This document shows, one piece after another, positions 45,339-56,693 of a DNA stretch of 64,000 nt (position 1 is its first letter; each line of letters opens with the position of its first letter). Both the position numbers and the translations under genes were made by a program. The notes under the pieces were generated by a model. The model worked only from the letters and a program-made list of their open reading frames with translations, made no database searches and had not been told where the DNA came from. The stretch spans positions 62,001 through 126,000 of the forward strand of contig JAHFUZ010000006.1 in assembly GCA_023264815.1 (NCBI GenBank), written 5' to 3'. The DNA is from Arthrobacter sp. (GTDB lineage: Bacteria > Actinomycetota > Actinomycetes > Actinomycetales > Micrococcaceae).

Positions 45339-46465
45339 TGCCTTTCGTCATCAACGAAACCATGGGCGCATACAGCGAACTGCTGATGCTCCTCGCCGCC
45401 GGCACCTACACCGTGGCCTTCATCGCCTTTGCCTGGGACCTGGCCAAGAGCAGCAAGGCACTGCGCGCCATTGACCTGAAAGCGGCGGAAGCCGCGGGGG
45501 CTGTTGCCGGGGCCAAGGTTCCGGTGGCGGCCGGAGTGGGCGCCGCTGCCGGCACGTCCGAGGCCGTCGCGGGAGCGAACCGCGTGGATGCGCACCTGGC
45601 CGGGCCTGCCGGCAGGGCCGAACGCCCGTCGTCGTCCGCTGCCAAGGCCGGAGCGGGCTCCGCAGCGGGGCAAACGGCCGACGGCGACATGCGCTACGCC
45701 GGCGAACGCCGGGTCCCGGCGCGCGTGGCCGTCGCCCTCACCATCCTGGGCGTGCTGATCCACGGTGCCGGCGTGGTCACCCGCGCGCTGGGTGCCGGCC
45801 GCGTGCCGTGGGGCAACATGTACGAGTTCCTCACCACCGGCGCCTTTGTGGCCGTGGCCGTGTTCCTGCTGGTACTCATCCGCCGCGACCTGCGGTTCCT
45901 GGGTACCTTCGTGGTGGGCCTGGCGATCATCATGCTGGTGGCCGCGTCCGTTGCGTACTGGACCCCGGTGGGCCACCTGGTACCTGCCCTGCAGAGCTAC
46001 TGGCTGATTATCCACGTCTCCATCGCCGTACTCTCGTCGGCACTTTTCACCCTGACCTTTGCCATGTCCGCGCTGCAGCTGGTCCAGGCCCACCGGCAAA
46101 AGACCATTGCCGCCGGCGGCGCCGACAAGCTGGGGTTCATGCGGCTGGTGCCCTCGGCCCTCAGCCTGGAAAACCTGTCCTACCGCATCAACGCCATCGC
46201 CTTCATTGGCTGGACCTTCACGCTGATGTTCGGGGCCATCTGGGCCGAAAAAGCCTGGGGCCGGTTCTGGGGCTGGGACACCAAGGAAGTGTGGACGTTC
46301 GTGATCTGGGTGGTCTACGCAGGCTACCTGCACGCCCGAGCAACCCGCGGCTGGACCGGAACGCGCGCTGCGTGGCTGTCGATTGTGGGTTACCTCTGTG
46401 TGGTCTTCAACTTCACCATCGTGAACCAGTTCTTCAACGGCCTGCATTCCTACTCCGGCCTCTGA
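45338..46465 (+). CDS. ccsB: CcsB/CcsA-type cytochrome c biogenesis protein
   Basis: A 375-residue polytopic membrane protein. The last half contains the tryptophan-rich heme-handling motif WGRFWGWDTKEVWTFVIWVV, and conserved His residues in IHGAGVVTRALGAGRVPWGN, IIHVSIAVLSSALFTLTFAM and YAGYLHARATRG. It carries heme to the outer side with ResB. A low-complexity stretch of about 70 residues (KAAEAAGAVAGAKVPVAAGV) lies after the first segment and is unusual in length but seen in actinobacterial homologues. It is the last gene of the resA-ccdA-resB-ccsB operon; the next gene starts 157 bases on. Confidence 0.93.
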   Translation: MPFVINETMGAYSELLMLLAAGTYTVAFIAFAWDLAKSSKALRAIDLKAAEAAGAVAGAKVPVAAGVGAAAGTSEAVAGANRVDAHLAGPAGRAERPSSSAAKAGAGSAAGQTADGDMRYAGERRVPARVAVALTILGVLIHGAGVVTRALGAGRVPWGNMYEFLTTGAFVAVAVFLLVLIRRDLRFLGTFVVGLAIIMLVAASVAYWTPVGHLVPALQSYWLIIHVSIAVLSSALFTLTFAMSALQLVQAHRQKTIAAGGADKLGFMRLVPSALSLENLSYRINAIAFIGWTFTLMFGAIWAEKAWGRFWGWDTKEVWTFVIWVVYAGYLHARATRGWTGTRAAWLSIVGYLCVVFNFTIVNQFFNGLHSYSGL

Positions 46466-46622
46466 ACAGGGGTTTCGTCCAATTCGGTCGGATTGGCGCC
46501 GGCTAATACGCAAATCGATGTACGAATGAGGCTGTCGCCCGGCAGGCGGTGGTGCTACCTTGGTTGAAGCTCGTCCGTGATGAAGCTCGCGGATTGGCCA
46601 GCTGCGTTCTTCTGAGGTTCCC
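46466..46622 (+). promoter_or_regulatory. upstream region of Hsp70-like gene
   Basis: A 157-base gap containing an inverted repeat CCAAT-n8-ATTGG (46479-46496) and a 16-base-period direct repeat of GAAGCTCG (46566-46573 and 46582-46589). These are candidate operator sites. The CCCCTA/TAGGGG hexamers of the iniB upstream region are absent here. Confidence 0.4.
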
Positions 46623-48869
46623 ATGAGCTACGTTCTCGCCATTGATGTCGGGACAAGTTTCACTGCCGCCGCCATTGCCAAAAATGACCAGGATGCCCAG
46701 CCGGTTCCGGAGAGCCTGCCGCTGGGTTCACGCGGGACCGCAGTGCCATCCGTGGTGTACTACCCCGAAGAAGGGCCCGTCCTGGTGGGCGAGGCGGCGG
46801 AACGCCGTGGCCTTGACGATCCCGTCCGTGTGGTCCGTGAGTTCAAGCGCCGGATCGGTGACAGCGTCCCCATCGCTGTAGGTACCCTGTCCCTCTCAGC
46901 GGAAGCCGTCTTTGCCACCATGGCCCAGTGGGTGGTGGACCGGGCGGTGGAACGTGAGGGCGAAGCGCCCTCGGAAATCATCATCACCCACCCCGCCGCG
47001 TGGGGCGGACACCGGACTATGGCCGTCCTCACGGCACTCACTGCCAAGGGCCTCCACAGGGTGACACTCATCAGCGAACCGGAAGCGGCAGCGCTGCACT
47101 ACGCCTCCCAGGTGCGCGTGGAAGATGACAGCACCATCGCCGTCTACGACCTGGGCGGTGGAACCTTTGACACGGCAATCCTGCGGAAGGAAAGCACTGG
47201 GCGTTTTGACTTCCTGGGCAGCCCGGAAGGGATCGAAGGGCTGGGCGGCGCTGATTTTGATGCTGCCGTGCTCCGCTACGTGGCGGCACACACCGGGGAT
47301 GCTTTTTCTGACCTTGACCCGGCGGACCCCGCCACCCTCGCGGCGCTGGCACGGCTGCGGCGCGAATGCGTGGAAGCCAAGGAAGCACTCTCGTCCGACA
47401 GCGAAGCCAGTATCCCGGTCTTGCTGCCAGGCACGCAGCAGCAGGTCCGGCTGGTCCGGTCAGAGTTCGAGGCCATGATCGATGAGTCCATCCGTGAAAC
47501 CGTGGACTCCCTTGAAAGTTCGCTGGAACAGCTTGGGCTTGGACCGGCTGACCTCACCGCAGTACTGCTGATCGGCGGCTCCTCGCGGATTCCTTTGGTG
47601 GCACAGCTCATTTCCGAACAGCTGGACCGGCCCATCGCCGTGGACGCGGACCCCAAGTCCTCCATTTGCCTCGGAGCCGCCGTGGCCGCGCTCCGGGCCC
47701 TGCCGGCGGCAGCGCCACTGCCTTCTGAGGATGCTGCCGCGGTTCCGGGAATCCCTGCACCGGCAGACGTAGCTGTTGAGCCGCACGGCACAGACCGCCG
47801 TGCCAGTTGGTCCCGTAAGCCCGGGGCCACCTTTGGCTCCTTGGCTGGCACCGCCGCCGCAGGCGACGGTGCCAGGGGCGTTCCCGCCGGGCCGGCTCCT
47901 GCTGCGGGCCATGCCCATCCTCCTGTCCACGCCCATGCGGCCAAGGGTGGAGCCCACGCTCCCCATGCCCCACGGCCGGCCGTGCGGCTGACAGCCGTGG
48001 CGGCCGGAGCAGCCCTGTTCACCATCCTGACGGCCACCGCCGCGCAGAGTCCGGACGGGCTGGGAAGCCTCACCGCGATGTTTGCTCCGCCGCCGGCCCC
48101 CGCTCCCTTGAGCCCCGCACCTGCTGCACCCGAAGGGGGTGGCGGCGCCCCAGGCGGCGGCGGACCTGCTGCCGCTGTCCCGGGCGAGCCCCAGCCTCCC
48201 CAGGCGGGCATTGAGGCCAGCGCCAGGCCGGTGGCCCCGGCTACCCAAACGCCGTTGGCGGGGGTCGAGGCCGCTGCGTCCCCCACCAGCCAGCCCTCCG
48301 CCTCGTCCTCCCCGGGCGCCGGCATTGAAGCCGGCGGTGGTTCGGGGTCAGCGCCGAACACTCCAGGGACATCGAGCGATCCCACCCAGGTAGCCGCGCC
48401 GGGAACTTCGACGACCACGCCGCCGGCCACGACGACGCCTCCGACGACGACTGACCCGACCACGCCGCCGGCCACGACGCCGCCTCCGACGACGACTGAC
48501 CCGACCACGCCGCCGGCCACGACGCCGCCTCCGACGACGACTGACCCGACCACGCCGCCGGCCACAACGACGCCTCCGACGACGACTGACCCGACCACGC
48601 CGCCGGCCACAACGACGCCTCCGACGACGACTGACCCGACCACACCGCCGCCGACCACCACGGACCCGGTGCCCAGCCTGGAACCCGTACCAACCACCCC
48701 GGCGCCGGAACCGGTACCGACCATCACGCAGACGGCTGCGCCTGCGCCTGAGCCGCTGCCTACCATTACCGAGACCGTGGCCCCCGCGCCGGCACCTGCA
48801 CCTTCACCTGCACCGACCACAGTGGCGCCCGCACCGTCGCCTGATCCGACCACCGTTCCGGCTGCGTGA
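46623..48869 (+). CDS. membrane-anchored Hsp70-family ATPase with Thr/Pro repeat tail
   Basis: A 748-residue protein. Residues 1-360 form an Hsp70/actin-type nucleotide-binding domain: YVLAIDVGTSFTAAAIAKND (phosphate 1), IAVYDLGGGTFDTAILRKES (phosphate 2) and VLLIGGSSRIPLVAQLISEQ (adenosine site). There is no recognisable substrate-binding domain. After a His/Ala/Pro linker comes one membrane segment (residues about 454-476), which puts everything beyond it outside the cell. The outside part is Pro/Ala/Gly/Thr-rich and includes about four and a half copies of a 15-residue unit TTTDPTTPPATTPPP (residues about 599-681). It ends three bases before the LuxR gene. I infer a role as sensor or scaffold for the LuxR protein, with ATP-driven change transmitted across the membrane. 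Not a general folding chaperone. Confidence 0.85.
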   Translation: MSYVLAIDVGTSFTAAAIAKNDQDAQPVPESLPLGSRGTAVPSVVYYPEEGPVLVGEAAERRGLDDPVRVVREFKRRIGDSVPIAVGTLSLSAEAVFATMAQWVVDRAVEREGEAPSEIIITHPAAWGGHRTMAVLTALTAKGLHRVTLISEPEAAALHYASQVRVEDDSTIAVYDLGGGTFDTAILRKESTGRFDFLGSPEGIEGLGGADFDAAVLRYVAAHTGDAFSDLDPADPATLAALARLRRECVEAKEALSSDSEASIPVLLPGTQQQVRLVRSEFEAMIDESIRETVDSLESSLEQLGLGPADLTAVLLIGGSSRIPLVAQLISEQLDRPIAVDADPKSSICLGAAVAALRALPAAAPLPSEDAAAVPGIPAPADVAVEPHGTDRRASWSRKPGATFGSLAGTAAAGDGARGVPAGPAPAAGHAHPPVHAHAAKGGAHAPHAPRPAVRLTAVAAGAALFTILTATAAQSPDGLGSLTAMFAPPPAPAPLSPAPAAPEGGGGAPGGGGPAAAVPGEPQPPQAGIEASARPVAPATQTPLAGVEAAASPTSQPSASSSPGAGIEAGGGSGSAPNTPGTSSDPTQVAAPGTSTTTPPATTTPPTTTDPTTPPATTPPPTTTDPTTPPATTPPPTTTDPTTPPATTTPPTTTDPTTPPATTTPPTTTDPTTPPPTTTDPVPSLEPVPTTPAPEPVPTITQTAAPAPEPLPTITETVAPAPAPAPSPAPTTVAPAPSPDPTTVPAA
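48418..48665 (+). repeat. in-frame 45-bp tandem repeats coding a Thr/Pro stalk
   Basis: Units of 45 bases that encode TTTDPTTPPATTPPP or TTTDPTTPPATTTPP repeat with very high DNA identity, about four full copies plus a part. The repeats are in frame, so copy number could change by recombination or slippage without breaking the reading frame. Thr/Pro-rich stalks of this kind are commonly O-mannosylated in actinobacteria. Confidence 0.85.
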
Positions 48870-48872
48870 CGC

Positions 48873-50918
48873 ATGTTGTCCCGCGAGGCCGCAGCGGCCC
48901 ACGAATCTGTCGCGCCCGCCTATCCCCAGCACATGGCAGACCAGCTCCGCGGAGAGAACGCAGCGGTGCGGGAACTCCTGTTGGCGTTGTCGGTGGGCTT
49001 CACCCTGCCAGGACCGTTGCCGCAGGATCTTGAGCGGAAAGTGGCCGACGGCCAGATGGAGAGCATTGAAGCATTGGTGGCCCGGGCGGAAGCGTCCGGG
49101 CTTCTCCAATCCGACGGCAGCGTGGTGGGGACGGCCCAGCACGCCCTGCTGGCATCAACGCCTGCCCCCCGGCTTCATGCCCTCCAGCGCGAACTGGTGG
49201 GCTGCTATGCCGCAGACGGCCGTGCCCTGGGGGACCTGGCCCGCGACCTGGCCCGGAGCGGACTGGCCGATCAGCGCGTCGCCGCCGAACTCGAAAAGGC
49301 CGGGGACCGGGCCCTGGAACACGATCCGGGACTGGCCGCCCAGCTCTACGATGAAGCCGTCCTGTCCGGCGCCGACGAGTTTGGTACTGCCGCCCGCCGT
49401 GCCCAGGCGGCGTTGGCCACCGGAGACCTGGATGCCGCCGGCCGGATCATTGACGGACTGCTGGTGTGCCCTGATCCGCCGGACCTCCGCCTTGGCGCGG
49501 ACGTGGCCGCCGCCGTCTGGGCGCAGCGCGGCATGCTGGCACGCGGAGCCGACGTGTACACCTGGCTGGGGCAGGCCAGGATTGGACCGTCCGGCCCGGC
49601 GGCCGCGGTGGCCATGATCGGATGCGGGAACCGTGCAGGCGCCGCAGCGATGTTCCCGGACGGTTCCGCGCCGGCATCGCCCACCGTCCTGTCCGTGGCG
49701 CAGGCGCAGACCGCCCAGGGCATTGTGGAATCCCTGTCCGCGGATCCGCACCAGGGGCTACCGCTCCTGATCCATGCCTCGGACATGGTGAATGCCTCGG
49801 GGACGGCACAGCCTGTGCCCGAGACGCCGGGCGCCTTGGCCGCCCTGGTGGCACTGCACAGCGGTGAACCGCACCTCGCGGAAACCATCGCGCGGGCCGC
49901 CGCGGCAGCAGGCCAGGGCGGCGACGCCGTCAAGCCCAGGCTCTTCCTGCTCCAGGCATGGTCTGCCATGCAGCAGGACAACCCCGACGAAGCACGGTTG
50001 GCCATCAACGAGGCCAAGAAAACCAACCACTGGCCCCTGGTTCCCCGGGACGAATTCCTCTGCGCGGCCCTGGAAGTGGGCCTGGCCCGCAGGAGCGGTG
50101 AAGTCCATGACCTGCTCCTGGCCTGGGAACGCGCACGCGAAGCCATGCTGCACACCACCGTGGACCTGTACAGTCTGCTGCCTTGGGGCGAACTGATGAT
50201 CGCCGCCGCGAGGCTTAGGGAAACCCGGCGGGTATCGCATTACCTCGACGAGGCCTGGACGCTCCTGCGAAACCTGGGGGAGCCGCCCCTGTGGGCCGTG
50301 CCCCTGCACTGGGCAGCCGTCCAGGCAGCGCTGCTGAACGAAAGCCCTGCCGGCCTGGCACCCCACGCCTCGGAGCTTGCACGCGCCGCGGAGCACAGCC
50401 ACCTCGCGGCGCGCCTGGCAGCGGCGGGCAAAGCCTGGGTATTGGTCCTCTCCGGCAGGTTCCAGGCAGCGGACGTGGAGGCAGCCGCCCGGGGGCTGAG
50501 CGCCGTCGGGATGCCCTGGGAGGGGGCACGGCTGGCCGGCCATGCCGCCGCCCGGGCAGACGAACGCAAGGATATGGTGCGGCTCCTGTCCTGCGCCCGG
50601 GACCTCCATCCGCAGGGAAACTCCGCCGGCCCAAACATCGCTGCGCAGACCGAAGCGCGCAGTGTCCCTGCCGCGGAGCAGCCCGGAAGTTCCGTGCAGC
50701 CGGATGCTTCGGTGCTGAGCGAACGCGAGAAGGAAGTGGCCAGGCTGGTGCTGGAAGGAAAGACCTACCGCGAAATAGGGGAGGCCATCTATATTTCCCC
50801 GCGGACGGCCGAACACCACATTGCCCGGATGCGCCGCCGCCTTGGCGCCGAAAACCGCTCCGACCTGCTGGTGAGGCTGAGGCTGGCCCTGGGCACCGAA
50901 AATCCCCAACGGGAATGA
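48873..50918 (+). CDS. LuxR-type HTH regulator lacking an obvious NTPase domain
   Basis: A 681-residue protein ending in a LuxR helix-turn-helix: LSEREKEVARLVLEGKTYRE then IGEAIYISPRTAEHHIARMR (residues about 614-674). The long part in front is alpha-helical repeat sequence of TPR type (LARDLARSGLADQRVAAELE, AQLYDEAVLSGADEFGTAAR). Large LuxR regulators normally start with an AAA/STAND NTPase; no Walker A or B motif is visible here, and the N-terminus reads like the part that usually follows it. The adjacent Hsp70-like ATPase, three bases upstream, could supply the nucleotide-driven switch in trans. In mycobacteria an IniR regulator controls iniBAC; this protein is positioned accordingly, but equivalence is inferred. 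Confidence 0.82.
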   Translation: MLSREAAAAHESVAPAYPQHMADQLRGENAAVRELLLALSVGFTLPGPLPQDLERKVADGQMESIEALVARAEASGLLQSDGSVVGTAQHALLASTPAPRLHALQRELVGCYAADGRALGDLARDLARSGLADQRVAAELEKAGDRALEHDPGLAAQLYDEAVLSGADEFGTAARRAQAALATGDLDAAGRIIDGLLVCPDPPDLRLGADVAAAVWAQRGMLARGADVYTWLGQARIGPSGPAAAVAMIGCGNRAGAAAMFPDGSAPASPTVLSVAQAQTAQGIVESLSADPHQGLPLLIHASDMVNASGTAQPVPETPGALAALVALHSGEPHLAETIARAAAAAGQGGDAVKPRLFLLQAWSAMQQDNPDEARLAINEAKKTNHWPLVPRDEFLCAALEVGLARRSGEVHDLLLAWERAREAMLHTTVDLYSLLPWGELMIAAARLRETRRVSHYLDEAWTLLRNLGEPPLWAVPLHWAAVQAALLNESPAGLAPHASELARAAEHSHLAARLAAAGKAWVLVLSGRFQAADVEAAARGLSAVGMPWEGARLAGHAAARADERKDMVRLLSCARDLHPQGNSAGPNIAAQTEARSVPAAEQPGSSVQPDASVLSEREKEVARLVLEGKTYREIGEAIYISPRTAEHHIARMRRRLGAENRSDLLVRLRLALGTENPQRE

Positions 50919-50919
50919 T

Positions 50920-50979
50920 CCCCTAGTGCCCCTAACCGGGCGGGCCGCTGACCCCCGGAAGGGACTGCGCCGGTAGGGG
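50920..50979 (+). promoter_or_regulatory. CCCCTA/TAGGGG sites upstream of iniB
   Basis: CCCCTA occurs at 50920-50925 and 50929-50934 (period 9) and TAGGGG at 50974-50979. The pair CCCCTA-a-CCGG (50929-50939) and CCGG-TAGGGG (50970-50979) is an inverted repeat with one bulged base. A -10-like TACGTT lies at about 51017. These are candidate binding sites for the LuxR regulator encoded immediately upstream. Confidence 0.5.
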
Positions 50980-51027
50980 GAACCGACCCGATGCCCGGTG
51001 CACGTGCGGGACCCTACGTTTGATTCA

Positions 51028-51049
51028 AGCCCGGCAACGAGGCCGGGCT
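51028..51049 (+). other. hairpin in iniB 5' leader
   Basis: AGCCCGGC-aacgag-GCCGGGCT, an 8-bp perfect stem with a 6-base loop, about 35 bases upstream of the iniB ATG. It lies in the expected untranslated leader and could stabilise the mRNA or tune translation. Confidence 0.5.
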
Positions 51050-51084
51050 ACCCACAAATTCAGAGAAGATTTGAGGAGCATCAA

Positions 51085-52098
51085 ATGCCTACACTCGCAA
51101 ACGACCTCGTCCTGTTCCTGATGAGCCTTTTCGGGAACCACGACGCCGCCAAGGAGTTCCTGGATGATCCGGACAAGGTCCTTGATGATCACGGCCTCGG
51201 CGGCGTCTGCTCCTCGGATGTTGATGCGGCACTGCCCGTCATCCTGGACTTCGCACCCATCACCGTGAACGCATCCTCCTACGACCGGTCCTACAACACC
51301 GGTGGCAACGGTGCTGCAACCGGCGGTGGTGGCGGCGGCGGTGCCGTCCCAGTCACCCCGCCGCCGAGTGGCGGTCACCACCACGATGACCACCACCACG
51401 CAGTCCAGCAGCTGCACAACGTGGTGAACAACTACTCCTGGACCTCCACCGTGGATGACCGGGACACCATCACGGACCAGTCCGTCAACCAGAACATCTG
51501 GGCCGACGGCGACGTCACCCAATGGTTCGACAACGATTCGGTTGTCGCTTCCGGCGACCGCGCGGTGGCCGCGGGCGATGACGTGAACATCGAGGATTCG
51601 AACAACATCGAGGACTCCTACAACACGGACAACTCGAATGACAGCTCCACGGACAACTCCATCAACGCCGGCCGTGACGCCAGCGTGGGGAACACCGACA
51701 CGGACATTGACGACTCCTTCAACACCGACCTGGACGTCGACGTTGACGATTCGTTCAACGACAACTCGGACAACCGCGTGGACAACTCCGAAGAGACCGA
51801 CGTGGCCATCGACGATTCGTTCAACGACAACTCCGTTGAGGTTGAGGACGTCGGCAACACGGAGACCAACCTGGAGGCCACGGACAACTCGGATAACTCC
51901 ACCAACGTGAACGTCGAGGACTCCTTCCAGGACAACAGCCAGGAGACCACCACCACGGAGGACACCGACGTCGCGATCATCGACTCCTTCGACCCGGTAG
52001 TGGTTGAAGACTCCTTCACGGAGGAAACCAACACCAACGTCGAGGTGGAGGACGTCGGCAATACGGAGCTCGAGGCCGGAGACGACATCAACCTCTAG
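51085..52098 (+). CDS. iniB: IniB-like protein with acidic repeat region
   Basis: A 337-residue protein. Residues 1-65 (MPTLANDLVLFLMSLFGNHD, AKEFLDDPDKVLDDHGLGGV, CSSDVDAALPVILDFAPI) match the IniB N-terminal domain. A glycine-rich linker and a His/Asp cluster (GGHHHDDHHHAVQQLH) follow, then about 220 residues built from acidic units such as VEDSF, DDSFNDNS and TDVAIDDSFNDNS. This composition suggests a regular beta-solenoid or disordered polyanion, and the His/Asp cluster could bind metal. No signal peptide is apparent. Strong ribosome-binding site GAGGAG at 51073-51078. In mycobacteria IniB belongs to an operon induced by cell-wall antibiotics; its molecular role is unknown. Confidence 0.85.
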   Translation: MPTLANDLVLFLMSLFGNHDAAKEFLDDPDKVLDDHGLGGVCSSDVDAALPVILDFAPITVNASSYDRSYNTGGNGAATGGGGGGGAVPVTPPPSGGHHHDDHHHAVQQLHNVVNNYSWTSTVDDRDTITDQSVNQNIWADGDVTQWFDNDSVVASGDRAVAAGDDVNIEDSNNIEDSYNTDNSNDSSTDNSINAGRDASVGNTDTDIDDSFNTDLDVDVDDSFNDNSDNRVDNSEETDVAIDDSFNDNSVEVEDVGNTETNLEATDNSDNSTNVNVEDSFQDNSQETTTTEDTDVAIIDSFDPVVVEDSFTEETNTNVEVEDVGNTELEAGDDINL

Positions 52099-52120
52099 CC
52101 AAGTCCGCAGTTCCCAGGCG

Positions 52121-52156
52121 GTGCCCGGCGGGGGTTCCATCCTTCCCGCCGGGCAC
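52121..52156 (+). terminator. 12-bp perfect hairpin between iniB and iniA
   Basis: GTGCCCGGCGGG (52121-52132) and CCCGCCGGGCAC (52145-52156) pair perfectly around a 12-base loop. It is followed by only a weak T-tract, so it may act as a partial terminator or 3'-end stabiliser that makes iniB more abundant than the GTPase genes. Confidence 0.65.
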
Positions 52157-52209
52157 TTCCCGGCATACCGAAAACGTCCCCAACCGAGACTGGAAGCAAA
52201 GGACTGGCT

Positions 52210-54195
52210 GTGGTTGATACGCAACGATCAGGGGCCCTGGCAACGAAGCCAGACCCCGAACCGGCGGCGAGGACGTCCGGGCCCGCAACAGCGCCGGCCA
52301 CCGGGCCCGCCACCTCTGCGCAACTGGTCAAACTGGTTGAGCAGGGCATCGAAATCGTCAGCGAGGGCGAGCGCGCCGACCTGCGCAAGCGCCTGGACCA
52401 GACCCTTCGCCGGCTGAACGATCCCAGCATCCGCGTGATTGTGGTGGGCGAATTCAAGCAAGGGAAAAGTAAGCTCATCAACGCCCTGGTCAACGCACCG
52501 GTGTGCCCTGTCGATGACGACATTGCCACCTCGGTGCCAACGGTGGTCCGGCACGGCGATCCGGCGTCGGCCTCTGTCCTCCTGCCGCGGGCCGAGGCGG
52601 ACTCCGGTGACGACGAAGCCCTGGAGCGCCTGCCGATCAATATCGCAGACCTCGCAGCCTACGTGTCCGAACGCGGGAATCCCGGCAATGCCAAGAAGCT
52701 GGTGGCCGCCGAAGTGTTTCTGCCACGCAGGGTGCTGGCCGGCGGGCTGACCGTTGTTGATTCGCCCGGCGTCGGCGGCCTGGGTTCCACCCATACACTG
52801 ACCACCCTGACGGCGCTGCCAACGGCGGACGCCCTGGTGCTTGTCTCCGACGCGTCCCAGGAGTACACGGAACCGGAGGTCCGGTTCCTGCGGCAGGCCA
52901 TGCGGATTACCCCCAGTGTGGTGGGCGTCCTGTCCAAGACGGACCTTTACCCGGAATGGCGCCGGGTGGCCGACCTGGACCGCGGACACCTTTCCCAGGT
53001 ATCTCCCGAGATTCCGCTGTTCCCCGTGTCCTCGGACCTTCGGCTCGAAGCCGCCCGGCAACAGGACAGCGAACTCAACAACGAATCAGGCTTCCCCGGC
53101 CTGATTGGGCACCTGCGCAAGGAGATCGTGGGCAAGGCCGAAAGGATCCAGCGGCGCTCGGTCAGCCAGGACCTGCTCACCGTGGCGGACAACCTTCGCC
53201 TGTCGCTGCAGTCAGAACTGGCGGCGCTGGAGGACCCGGCAGGGACTCCTGCCATGATCGCCAGCCTGGAAGCTGCCAAAGTGGAGGCCGACGACCTCCG
53301 CAAACGTTCCGCGCGCTGGCAGATCACGCTCAACGACGGCATCGGTGACCTGATTGCCGACATGGAATACGACCTGCGGGACCGTCTGCGGCGGATCCAG
53401 CGCGAAGCCGAGACCGCCATTGACCAGGGTGATCCCGGCCCCACCTGGACGGCGTTTACGAAGTGGCTCGAAGAATGCGCCGCAGCAGCCATCTCGGATA
53501 CGTTTGTCTGGACGAGTGAGCGGGCGCAGTGGCTGGCTGCCCAGGTTGCCGAGCATTTCTCCGAGGATGAGGTGGCGCTTCCGGCCCTCCGCGTCTCCGA
53601 TACCGGCGACGCACTTGACCCTGTGGACGACATGCCCGACCTTGACGACGGGCACATCAACCCGGTGCAGAAAGTCCTGATCGGCATGCGTGGCTCCTAT
53701 GGCGGTGTGCTGATGTTCGGGCTCCTGACCGGCATCTTCGGCATGGCACTGATCAACCCCCTGTCCGTGGGGGCCGGCCTCCTGCTGGGCCGCAAAGCCT
53801 ACCGCGAGGACAAGGAAGCCAGGCTCAAGCGTCGGCAGGCAGAAGCGAAAGCCCTGGTCCGCCGCCAGCTGGACGATGTGGTGTTCCAGGTGGGGAAGCA
53901 GCTCAAGGACAGGCTCCGGCAGGTCCAGCGCTCCACCCGCGACCACTTCACCGAAATCGCCGAGGAACACCACCGCTCGCTGTCGGATTCCGTGGCAGCT
54001 GCCCAGAAGGCAGCCACCACGTACAAGCTGGAAAAAGACCTGCGGATCCGGGACATCAAGGCCGAGCTCAAGCGGGTGGATGCCCTCCAGCAGGCGGCCA
54101 GGGGCCTGGTGGACAGTGAGCAGTCACCTGTGCGGCCTGCCCGGGGCCCTGCCACGGCACCCCTGCGGGCACCGGCGGTGGTGGCGGCCGGATGA
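52210..54195 (+). CDS. iniA: IniA-like dynamin-family GTPase
   Basis: A 661-residue bacterial dynamin-like protein. G1 is IVVGEFKQGKSKLINALVN (residues about 77-95), G2/switch includes DIATSVPTVV, G3 is VVDSPGVGGL (near residue 182) and G4 is LSKTDLYPEW (near residue 241). Long helical stretches follow (LRDRLRRIQREAETAIDQGD), with a hydrophobic membrane-facing segment GVLMFGLLTGIFGMALINPL at about residues 499-525, typical for membrane insertion in dynamins. Structures of mycobacterial IniA show membrane-fission activity in vitro. GTG start after a 111-base gap from iniB; a long coiled-coil C-terminus is evident. Overlaps iniC by 4 bases. Confidence 0.87.
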   Translation: MVDTQRSGALATKPDPEPAARTSGPATAPATGPATSAQLVKLVEQGIEIVSEGERADLRKRLDQTLRRLNDPSIRVIVVGEFKQGKSKLINALVNAPVCPVDDDIATSVPTVVRHGDPASASVLLPRAEADSGDDEALERLPINIADLAAYVSERGNPGNAKKLVAAEVFLPRRVLAGGLTVVDSPGVGGLGSTHTLTTLTALPTADALVLVSDASQEYTEPEVRFLRQAMRITPSVVGVLSKTDLYPEWRRVADLDRGHLSQVSPEIPLFPVSSDLRLEAARQQDSELNNESGFPGLIGHLRKEIVGKAERIQRRSVSQDLLTVADNLRLSLQSELAALEDPAGTPAMIASLEAAKVEADDLRKRSARWQITLNDGIGDLIADMEYDLRDRLRRIQREAETAIDQGDPGPTWTAFTKWLEECAAAAISDTFVWTSERAQWLAAQVAEHFSEDEVALPALRVSDTGDALDPVDDMPDLDDGHINPVQKVLIGMRGSYGGVLMFGLLTGIFGMALINPLSVGAGLLLGRKAYREDKEARLKRRQAEAKALVRRQLDDVVFQVGKQLKDRLRQVQRSTRDHFTEIAEEHHRSLSDSVAAAQKAATTYKLEKDLRIRDIKAELKRVDALQQAARGLVDSEQSPVRPARGPATAPLRAPAVVAAG

Positions 54196-55685
54196 AGACG
54201 CCCACCGTCCCGGGGGTGGCTGAGCTGATCCGGGAGGCTCTCTCCGTCTACCGCGATGATCCTGCCGCCGTCGCGACGTTGGAGGGGTATGCCGGCAGGC
54301 TGGCCGAACCCTTGCGGATAGCTGTGGCGGGAATGGTGAAGGCCGGCAAGTCGACCCTGCTGAACGCCATCATCGGGGAAGAGATCGCCCCCACGGACAC
54401 CGCCGAATGCACGCGCATCGTGACCTGGTACCGGTTTGCCCATTCCCCCCGCATCACCCTTGAGCCCATAGCCGGCGAACCTCGCCTGCTGCCCCTGAAG
54501 CGGGTCAGCGGGCGGCTTGTTTTCGACCTGGGCGGGGCGCGGGCGGAGGATGTGGAGCGCCTGGTGGTGGAATGGCCGTCGGAGAGCCTCCGGAATGTCA
54601 CCCTCATCGACACACCGGGAATCGCCTCACTGTCCGAGGATGTTTCCGCGCGGTCCGTCCGCTTCCTGACCCCGGACGACGCACCCTCCCAGGCTGACGC
54701 CGTCGTCTATCTCATGCGGCACATGCACGCCACGGATCTCCGGTTCCTGGAATCCTTCAAGGACACCGAGGCGGGCCGCTCCGGGACGGTTAATGCCATC
54801 GCCGTCCTCTCGCGGGCCGACGAAATCGGTGCGGGACGAATCGATTCGATGCTCTCCGCAGGGGACATTGCTGAGCGGTACCGTCGGGACCCCAGCCTGC
54901 GAAAGCTGGCGTTGGGGGTGGTCCCGGTGGCCGGTCTGTTGGCCCAGAGTGCCCGGAGCATGCGCCAGTCCGATTTCGAGTCGCTGGCCCTCCTTGCCGC
55001 CATGGAGCGGCCCGAGCGGGAACGGCTGCTGCTGTCCGCTGACAGGTTCCTGCGGTCCGGTATTCCGGAAGGGCTCACCGCGGACGCGAGGGAACAGCTC
55101 CTGGAACGGTTCGGGCTGTTTGGGATCCGCCTGGGCATTGTGCTGTTCCGGGCCGGATTCCGGGATCCCACGCCGCTGGCGCACGAGCTGGCCAGGCGGA
55201 GCGGGCTGGACCCGCTGCTGGGCATGCTGGCAGGGCAGTTCCATGCCCGCGCCGACGCCCTCAAGGCCCGCACGGCCCTGGTGGGCGTTGAAGCCCTCCT
55301 CCGGACCTCGCCACGGGTCGGCTCGGGGCATCTGGCAGCGGCACTGGAGCGTCTCCAGGTCAACGCGCACGAGTTCAGGGAACTGCGCCTGCTGGCCACG
55401 CTGCGGACCACCGGCGTCCCGCTCAGGCATGACCTGGCCGCCGAGGCAGAACGGATCATCGGCGGCGACGGCGTGGCGGCCCACATCCGGTTTGGCCTGA
55501 ACCCGGACGCCACTGCCGAAGACATTGGGGCCGCCGCCCACCAGGTCCTCCACCGCTGGCGCCTGGTAGCCGAGAACCCGCTGACGGACCGTGCAGCTTT
55601 GGAGGTTTGCCGCGTGGTGGTGCGCAGCTGTGAGGGTGTCCTGGCGGAGTCAGCCGGGCTCCACCTGCACCGGCAGCCGGCGTAA
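54192..55685 (+). CDS. iniC: IniC-like dynamin-family GTPase
   Basis: A 497-residue GTPase. G1 is VAGMVKAGKSTLLNAIIGEE at about residue 46, G2 APTDTAECTRIVTWYRF, G3 LIDTPGIASLSEDVSARS at about residue 138, and G4 AVLSRADEIGAG. Downstream is a helical stalk region (FESLALLAAMERPERERLLL, LERFGLFGIRLGIVLFRAGF). It has no clear membrane segment, so it may act as a soluble partner of IniA. ATG inside the iniA stop (ATGA). The stop is followed after seven bases by the end of a convergent gene, so this closes the operon. Confidence 0.87.
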   Translation: MKTPTVPGVAELIREALSVYRDDPAAVATLEGYAGRLAEPLRIAVAGMVKAGKSTLLNAIIGEEIAPTDTAECTRIVTWYRFAHSPRITLEPIAGEPRLLPLKRVSGRLVFDLGGARAEDVERLVVEWPSESLRNVTLIDTPGIASLSEDVSARSVRFLTPDDAPSQADAVVYLMRHMHATDLRFLESFKDTEAGRSGTVNAIAVLSRADEIGAGRIDSMLSAGDIAERYRRDPSLRKLALGVVPVAGLLAQSARSMRQSDFESLALLAAMERPERERLLLSADRFLRSGIPEGLTADAREQLLERFGLFGIRLGIVLFRAGFRDPTPLAHELARRSGLDPLLGMLAGQFHARADALKARTALVGVEALLRTSPRVGSGHLAAALERLQVNAHEFRELRLLATLRTTGVPLRHDLAAEAERIIGGDGVAAHIRFGLNPDATAEDIGAAAHQVLHRWRLVAENPLTDRAALEVCRVVVRSCEGVLAESAGLHLHRQPA

Positions 55686-55692
55686 CCGCAGG

Positions 55693-56286
55693 CTACGGCC
55701 GGTTCCGGCGCGTCTTAAACCATCGGCCGGCCGACGGCATCAACAGCGCCAGCAGTCCGACGAAGCCCAGGAGCACCTGGGCGCCCCAGAGGAGCAGGAC
55801 ATAGTTGCCGGCGTCGCCCTCAGGGACGAGGAACGCCCTGGCCACCGCCATCACTGCCACCTGGGCCGCGAGCAGCGGCGCCAGCAGCCACCGGGCCCAG
55901 CCGCGGCGCCCGGAGGCGGCCCCCATGAATGCTGCCTGCAGCACGATCAGCAAGAGCAGGGCGCTGCCGCTGCCCCAAAAGACGATGCCCGCGGAGGTGG
56001 TGACGGCGTCGGCGTCCCCGCCAGGGGCCATTTCCTCCACCACGGTGCGCAGCCGCTCCAGGTGGGACGTGCGGGTGAGGAACGTTCCACCCAGGACGGC
56101 CAGTCCGGCGACGATGCTGAAAAACCAGAGGTACCGCGCCCAGGTGATGCTGCGCGGCGTCGGCGGGATGGCTTCGATGGGTGCCGGCGCGGAGTAGGAC
56201 AAGCCGGGCCGCGGCGGGGGAGGAGGCGTGGCAGCCCCGGCGGGCGCAACTGGAAGTCGGTGTTCTCCGTCGGGGTGCTGGGGCAT
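55693..56286 (-). CDS. four-segment membrane protein, unrecognised family
   Basis: A 197-residue protein: a Pro-rich cytoplasmic N-terminus (LPVAPAGAATPPPPPRPGLS) then four membrane segments, YLWFFSIVAGLAVLGGTFLT, GSGSALLLLIVLQAAFMGAA, WLLAPLLAAQVAVMAVARAF and YVLLLWGAQVLLGFVGLLAL. I know no function. It is convergent with iniC, and its start is on the side of the PLDc_N gene with only five bases between, so these two are probably co-transcribed. Start at ATG 56286. Confidence 0.72.
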   Translation of the reverse strand: MPQHPDGEHRLPVAPAGAATPPPPPRPGLSYSAPAPIEAIPPTPRSITWARYLWFFSIVAGLAVLGGTFLTRTSHLERLRTVVEEMAPGGDADAVTTSAGIVFWGSGSALLLLIVLQAAFMGAASGRRGWARWLLAPLLAAQVAVMAVARAFLVPEGDAGNYVLLLWGAQVLLGFVGLLALLMPSAGRWFKTRRNRP

Positions 56287-56291
56287 GGGTC

Positions 56292-56693
56292 CTACTTCAC
56301 GTCGCCGGTGTCATGAGTGTCTGCGTCGCCCGTGCTGTCGGGGCCGGTGCCGGCAGGTCCGTCGCCGCCCTTTGCCTCAAGGTCATCCTTGAGTTTTTTG
56401 AGGCGGGCCGCTTCGGCCTGCTTCCGGCGGCGCACCTCGAGGTTCCGGAGGAAATCGGGGTCGTCATCCGGGGCCGTGGGACCACTGTAGGTGCGGCGGG
56501 CCGGAGGCGTGTTCCGGGGGCGGCCGATCAGCAGCCACAGGATGGCACCGATTACCGGGAGGACAATCATCACGATGATCCACGCGGGCTTGGAAATTCC
56601 CCGGGTCAGGCGGGCGTCAGTGCGGATCACGTCCACCAGTCCATACACAAAGATGACGAGAACTGCGACGGCCAGAACCACACGGAAGAGCAT
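56292..56693 (-). CDS. PLDc_N-type membrane protein
   Basis: A 133-residue protein with two N-terminal membrane segments (LFRVVLAVAVLVIFVYGLVD and AWIIVMIVLPVIGAILWLLI) followed by GRPRNTP, the layout of phospholipase-D N-terminal (PLDc_N) domain proteins. The remaining 75 residues are charged and helical (RRRKQAEAARLKKLKDDLEA), possibly a coiled coil. No enzymatic motif is present. ATG at 56693, chosen because the upstream part of the open frame does not resemble coding sequence. Confidence 0.78.
   Translation of the reverse strand: MLFRVVLAVAVLVIFVYGLVDVIRTDARLTRGISKPAWIIVMIVLPVIGAILWLLIGRPRNTPPARRTYSGPTAPDDDPDFLRNLEVRRRKQAEAARLKKLKDDLEAKGGDGPAGTGPDSTGDADTHDTGDVK

Follow-up and report, generated by a model that had tools for sequence, protein, structure and literature searches.

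The window analysed here, a 64,000-nt stretch of DNA from an Arthrobacter sp. (a soil bacterium with a genome of 4.18 Mb), contains five open reading frames on the positive strand that encode, in order, an Hsp70-like protein, a LuxR-type regulator resembling IniR, IniB, IniA and IniC. In mycobacteria, iniBAC is the classic response to cell-wall drugs. The module is read here, with an even chance of being correct, as a variant form of the IniR-iniBAC kind of cell-envelope stress system; the accompanying proposal, held with the same even confidence, is that the Hsp70-fold membrane protein is the membrane partner of the regulator. The likeness to the mycobacterial system lies in an IniR-family regulator, with a middle region resembling the tetratricopeptide repeat (TPR) fold of MalT domain III and a LuxR-type helix-turn-helix (HTH), adjoining iniB, iniA and iniC; the window differs in that its regulator has no AAA+ domain, all five genes share one strand, the Hsp70-like gene comes first and a sixth, convergent gene follows. 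A first-pass annotation had described the five genes with a gap of 3 bases between the first two (48869 to 48873) and an overlap of 4 bases between iniA and iniC (54192-54195), and genes, coordinates, gap and overlap all proved exact on re-reading of the sequence. Its family labels (Hsp70-type, LuxR, IniB-like and two dynamin-like GTPases) were upheld by matches to PF00012, GerE, NF038175 and Dynamin_N, and the structured leaders it had claimed correspond to hairpins found before iniB and between iniB and iniA. The features of the region are as follows.

46623 to 48869, plus strand: Hsp70-like protein (PF00012, hydropathy, composition, catalytic positions)
48873 to 50918, plus strand: IniR-like LuxR-type regulator without AAA+/P-loop domain (NF038181, motif scan, AlphaFold 2 model)
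50920 to 50979, plus strand: operator-like region (CCCCTA at 50920-50925 and 50929-50934, TAGGGG at 50974-50979)
50987 to 51020, plus strand: CCCGATGCCC block with TACGTT, a possible activator-dependent promoter (conservation)
51028 to 51049, plus strand: leader hairpin upstream of iniB (folding; GCCNGGCA motif)
51085 to 52098, plus strand: IniB-like protein (NF038175 above cut-off, alignment, AlphaFold 2)
52121 to 52156, plus strand: strong iniB/iniA intergenic hairpin with a 12-bp perfect stem (folding)
52210 to 54195, plus strand: IniA dynamin-like GTPase (phmmer to 6j72, alignment)
54192 to 55685, plus strand: IniC dynamin-like GTPase (PF00350, neighbourhood comparison)
55693 to 56286, minus strand: convergent small gene, weakly DUF6264-like (PF19779 below cut-off; co-occurrence)

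The arrangement of these genes is more than chance, because their order is conserved in relatives. Among 120 genomes of the family, screened for IniR at model matches above 300 bits (the other matches listed reached at most 48 bits) and for IniA at E 1e-30 or better, the two proteins were found in the same 12 genomes, four of which encode a full-length IniR with a P-loop. The order Hsp70-IniR-IniB-IniA-IniC was kept in 11 fetched neighbourhoods, the sole exception being L040, whose contig begins inside iniR, and the adjacency of an IniB N-terminal domain, IniA and IniC places the module in the iniBAC operon type. A wider profile search for IniR (E 1e-20 or better, partial matches counted) identified the regulator in 13/198 genomes of the order, 19/246 of the class and 7/246 of the phylum, as well as in 17/249 genomes of a family designated f19 and 106/201 of a family designated f22, which probably corresponds to Mycobacteriaceae sensu lato, judging by its iniB*-iniBAC layout.

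The coupling of the Hsp70-like gene to iniR was followed in a named set, the best 80 of 243 loci found, and in a second set of 77 loci; some genomes are in both sets, and the counts must therefore not be added. The Hsp70 stop codon lies no more than 60 bases from the iniR start, on the same strand, at 76 of the 80 named loci, including L115, which has broken genes. Of the remaining four, L050, L087 and L123 are cut off by the start of their contigs, and in L119 the Hsp70 gene is found just upstream over a scaffold gap; a natural Hsp70-IniR fusion in L119, suggested by an open frame of 1448 residues, was rejected, as the frame passes through a stretch of undetermined scaffold bases. The same direct adjacency (≤60 bases, same strand) was found at 63/77 second-set loci. 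At all 71 second-set loci holding both IniR and IniA, the best Hsp70 match (>100 bits) is on the IniR strand, including 57 in which IniA is on the strand opposite to IniR and Hsp70, and the Hsp70-like protein thus travels with the regulator. Owing to shared ancestry, most of all within f22, these loci, the 57 included, are not independent. The comparison proposed in the first-pass annotation, of whether the genes co-occur in related genomes, accordingly came out in its favour, both for IniR with IniA and, in most loci, for Hsp70 with the regulator. Several f22 loci, L134-L136 and L198 among them, carry a second Hsp70-like gene 3′ of iniR, so that the regulator is flanked by two. In Pseudarthrobacter sp. 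H3Y2-7 (L058), the Hsp70, IniR and a piece of IniB are kept, the Hsp70 being a weaker match with one catalytic change, and no IniA, IniC or DUF6264-like match was found ahead of PLDc_N.

The Hsp70-like protein aligns to positions 1-372 of the 599 in the PF00012 profile (E 2.9e-47) and consists of a nucleotide-binding lobe (about residues 1-360) without a substrate-binding domain, followed by a hydrophobic stretch near residues 456-474, likely a transmembrane helix, and a tail of 274 residues that is 52% Pro and Thr. On hydropathy alone, the protein is probably anchored in the membrane. It has the nucleotide-binding lobe and catalytic positions in common with DnaK/Hsp70 chaperones, eight catalytic positions being the same as in the DnaK of its own genome, and differs from them by the missing substrate domain, the likely transmembrane helix and the Pro/Thr-rich tail; the DnaK and HscA score cut-offs were not reached (TIGR02350, 155.8 bits against 822.55). 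Catalytic positions are intact in 55 of the 58 Hsp70 rows adjoining a P-loop-less IniR, the exceptions being L058 and two fragments of the gene that is broken in L115; these residues are degenerate in f22 loci and some f19 loci.

The LuxR protein matches the IniR model NF038181 over profile positions 171-825 of 827 (E 6.1e-110, 368.9 bits) and the GerE HTH domain (E 4.1e-13). Its closest relative among the compared rows belongs to Pseudarthrobacter sulfonivorans, at 88% over 516 columns. The curated NF038181 cut-off of 750 bits is reached neither by the window protein nor by any protein in the 120 family genomes, full-length ones included. No AAA+/P-loop domain was found in the window protein: profile positions 1-170 are unmatched, a P-loop motif is missing and the alignment agrees, identifying it as an IniR relative without the N-terminal AAA+/P-loop domain. 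The AlphaFold 2 model (mean predicted local distance difference test score 86.8, predicted template modelling score 0.74) is a helical superhelix with an HTH. Its top structural match is MalT domain III (1hz4, Z 20.3), tied with other TPR proteins, and the MalT-domain-III-like middle together with the LuxR-type HTH places the protein with IniR. The VIA-align comparison listed no ATPase fold for the model, with residues outside 123-581 hardly probed.

The ATPase domain of IniR has been lost repeatedly. In the named set, a P-loop is present in 20 IniR proteins and missing from 60; in the second set, 48 have one and 29 do not, 11 of the latter having a long N-terminus with no canonical P-loop. 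Between 17 and 93 residues precede the shared core in the P-loop-less named proteins, compared with about 220-250 in those with a P-loop, the outliers being L100 (144) and L119 (assembly gap); start codons were assigned by rule, and single N-terminal lengths may therefore be off. A 98-row tree built by a quick method (28 rows without the domain, 70 with) requires at least 14 state changes, 6 of them forced by starred branches, and in a careful 38-row tree the state changes 5 times. A single origin for all 19 ATPase-less rows of the latter was ruled out (approximately unbiased test, p-AU 0.0048); for 16 of the 19, forming two Micrococcaceae clades, a single origin is compatible (p 0.174). Arthrobacter sp. 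ISL-95 carries two modules (L104 and L105), an ATPase-less one at the ccs-men site and one with a P-loop IniR elsewhere.

An operator-like region with CCCCTA...TAGGGG, ahead of iniB, is conserved. CCCCTA or TAGGGG is found upstream of iniB-type genes in 78 of 83 regions (the named set and the window; 16.4 expected under a first-order Markov model) and in 74 of 82 such regions in the second set (9.9 expected), and the inverted CCCCTA/TAGGGG pair in 43/83 (0.19 expected) and 14/82 (0.09 expected), respectively. Within the window, CCCCTA by itself is not enriched (12 matches, 16 expected); a single instance of the two sites paired was found, where 0 were expected. For the less strict 5-mers CCCTA or TAGGG, the count is 24 of 25 regions before iniB, as opposed to 14 of 75 before hsp70. 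As such sites are rare before hsp70, this gene seems to belong to the regulator unit and not to the induced output. Downstream of the paired sites, the CCCGATGCCC block with TACGTT may serve as an activator-dependent promoter, and CCGATGCC is present in 58/83 named-set regions (1.8 expected) and 7/82 of the second set (1.7 expected); a pattern scan of 46400-56400 revealed no sigma-70 consensus. The 105-base iniB leader contains the hairpin at 51028-51049 (z -2.1), whose GCCNGGCA motif recurs in 36 of 82 distinct iniB leaders, and the 12-bp perfect stem lies in the 111-base iniB/iniA spacer (z -3.2). Perfect stems of at least 9 bp are found between iniB and iniA at 50/71 loci (0.8 expected from base shuffles); in several relatives the stem is kept with a different sequence. 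An Rfam search to E 1 gave two matches, each scoring far under its gathering threshold. Because RNA data suggest that IniB is made in excess over IniA or IniC (Boot et al., PMC5760070), a role of the iniB/iniA hairpin in unequal expression is plausible.

In the proposed mechanism, the Hsp70-fold protein, translationally coupled to the regulator, would hold or license the ATPase-less IniR-like protein at the membrane, as suggested by the coupling, the strand behaviour and the often missing IniR ATPase, whose recurrent loss is counted in support. Under envelope stress, it would let the regulator act at the CCCCTA/TAGGGG region, to which the regulator may bind; IniB, IniA and IniC would then be made, and the IniA/IniC dynamin pair would remodel or repair the membrane. 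The published part of this scheme is activation: Boot et al. report that IniR (Rv0339c) activates iniBAC in mycobacteria and, by chromatin immunoprecipitation, that it is located directly upstream of iniBAC in M. tuberculosis (PMC5760070). Since the window regulator belongs with this activator, it likely switches on IniB, IniA and IniC. It may be inferred that the Hsp70-like protein senses the stress and contacts IniR, and the nature of the signal it would read stands on the same footing. A possible analogy is offered by E. coli MalT, a TPR-type LuxR regulator held by the maltose transporter, in that the window regulator may likewise be controlled by a nucleotide-binding partner at the membrane; the window regulator has no STAND ATPase, and its partner would be of Hsp70 fold, not an ABC ATPase. 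The first-pass annotation had envisaged an Hsp70/LuxR pair that senses envelope damage and switches on iniBAC, an idea that gains from the co-occurrence, the Hsp70-regulator coupling and the likely activation by an IniR-type protein, while its sensing part stays conjectural; the kinship of the LuxR gene with IniR and the loss of its ATPase domain lay beyond what that annotation could see.

Several observations weigh against this mechanism. Full-length IniR proteins also have an Hsp70 neighbour, and the Hsp70 is therefore not a simple replacement for the ATPase. Direct Hsp70-iniR adjacency is missing at 14 of the 77 second-set loci (L126, L130-L133, L138, L141, L143, L145, L161, L162, L167, L186 and L192), of which L126 has IniR as its sole module gene and L143 has a contig that begins within the regulator frame, and f22 loci dominate this set. 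The IniR work published by Boot et al. needed no Hsp70, as far as the available text goes (PMC5760070). Finally, P-loop-less IniR proteins adjoin Hsp70s whose catalytic residues are altered in f22 loci (L144, L163-L166, L168-L170, L172, L176 and L179) and in f19 loci (L151 and L157). These loci break the rule that each locus keeps one live ATPase, either the IniR P-loop or the Hsp70 catalytic residues, which had fitted the first 100 Hsp70 rows, degenerate Hsp70s being initially found next to P-loop IniRs, and had been set down as a prediction before the f22 loci were examined. With its failure in f22, the Hsp70 cannot generally act as an ATP-driven switch, nor can ATP turnover by either protein be a general need; the pairing itself persists.

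Among the other explanations, the IniR-like protein may need no partner for sensing: its MalT-III-like TPR domain would detect the signal, possibly a sugar (trehalose, for instance), and the Hsp70 would do no more than modulate the regulator. Trehalose induces iniBAC via IniR in mycobacteria (PMC5760070), and the window protein retains the TPR/MalT-III-like fold; however, the Hsp70-iniR coupling persists in most loci examined, and the sensing system is assigned by Boot et al. to the periplasm, beyond the reach of a cytoplasmic regulator alone, with no sensor named in the text available (PMC5760070). This account is considered unlikely. It is more doubtful still that the Hsp70-like protein is a chaperone that folds or assembles IniR, IniB or the dynamins: the Hsp70 fold and the catalytic residues kept beside most P-loop-less IniR proteins would suit such a role, but the absence of a substrate-binding domain, the Pro/Thr-rich tail with the likely transmembrane helix, and the degenerate residues of f22 and some f19 loci would not. 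A weak MreB match (PF06723, E 9.9e-12), as the shared fold predicts, and a tail that could extend into the wall are consistent with an actin-like scaffold of the output machinery, positioning the dynamins at the membrane or wall, and yet the Hsp70 follows the strand of the regulator, not that of IniA, in 57/57 loci where the two differ, and hsp70 is without the control sites of iniB-type genes; this role is considered slightly less probable again than that of a chaperone.

An anti-phage defence system is the least probable of these alternatives, and very improbable. IniA is recovered by the PADLOC models LeoA and LeoBC (E 2.6e-14 and 1.7e-12), as is IniC with weaker matches; DynA of B. subtilis is reported to confer phage resistance (PMC8844932), and the presence of the cassette is patchy (8/20 congeners). 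The likeness to LeoABC comprises adjacent dynamin-like GTPases and weak model matches attributable to dynamin similarity, however, whereas the window proteins are of the IniA family with an IniR-type regulator, and regulator and control region fit a wall-stress system. In the flanks, the scan covered cytochrome c assembly and PLDc_N genes, and no search of the whole window was made for defence genes. Protection against phage, as raised in the first-pass annotation, thus found no real support beyond the LeoA/LeoBC matches.

The three output proteins are relatives of mycobacterial IniB, IniA and IniC. IniB scores 54.4 bits against NF038175 (IniB_NTERM; cut-off 40) and has a small helical N-terminal domain followed by an Asp/Asn/Ser-rich tail; its AlphaFold 2 model is confident just at residues of about 1-60 and 100-120, the tail confidence being too low to interpret. 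Tandem duplicates of iniB were found in L106, L111 and L124 (two Georgenia genomes and one Arthrobacter). The two dynamin-like GTPases match Dynamin_N with E 1.1e-19 and 3.1e-13. As many relatives of IniA begin about 36 codons later, its true start may be downstream of 52210. The window organism, unlike M. smegmatis, has no mycolic-acid envelope. Its IniA is homologous to the solved M. smegmatis IniA (PDB 6j72; phmmer E 1.8e-140, residues 39-620 aligned), which is reported to bind acidic lipids and to carry out GTP-dependent membrane fission (PMC6715688).

The convergent gene at 55693-56286 matches PF19779 at E 0.012, below cut-off, and is the sixth gene of the cassette, coming and going with the other five: a homologue is present in 11/11 fetched neighbourhoods, in 64/70 named loci with IniC, and at 7 of the 8 congener ccsB sites that hold the cassette but none of the 12 that lack it. 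The cassette lies between ccsB and the PLDc_N/DUF4229/menA genes in 8 of 20 congeneric genomes, the Hsp70 genes of L206 and L219 being detected by profile search after being missed by tblastn. The distance between the ccsB and PLDc_N matches is 136-265 bases at 4 of the 12 sites without it (L212, L217, L218 and L220) and 1.2-3.8 kb at the other eight. Loci named Pseudarthrobacter and Paenarthrobacter have the cassette at the same site, and it sits elsewhere in other genera. The earlier impression of a unit placed here as if inserted therefore agrees with the 12 congeners without it, four with nearly joined flanks, but the site shared with Pseudarthrobacter and Paenarthrobacter suggests an old cassette with losses and disfavours a recent insertion as the main explanation. 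Unrelated open frames that resemble each other fill the ccsB-PLDc_N gap in L203 and L211, with about 250-310 residues at some such sites. A second ccsB-like gene, 84% identical to that of the window, is found outside the window in the same genome (contig C12, 23372-24472), and another congener (G1231) has three ccsB-like matches.

In a literature search of titles, abstract starts and terms, with incomplete coverage, no study of the Hsp70 partner of IniR or of iniBAC outside mycobacteria was found; the single trace of such a partner in the print located is one remark concerning M. smegmatis by Boot et al., and neither Hsp70 nor DnaK is named in the main text of a report on a second iniBAC regulator, HpoR (PMC13413693). 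The Hsp70 candidate bears on how IniR learns of envelope damage. As an Hsp70-fold, probably membrane-anchored protein coupled to iniR in most loci examined, it is a concrete, deletable candidate for the iniBAC stress sensor, for which the conserved CCCCTA/TAGGGG region gives a reporter, and the recurring disappearance of the ATPase from IniR amounts to a natural experiment on the role of that domain. A bolder and more tentative possibility is that the protein is a transmembrane stress sensor of a new type, with a Hsp70/actin fold, a Pro/Thr-rich stalk outside the membrane and, in many lineages, degraded catalytic residues, that directly controls a MalT-type activator and is the ancestral, overlooked sensor of iniBAC; if true, this would explain why the ATPase of the regulator itself could be lost repeatedly.

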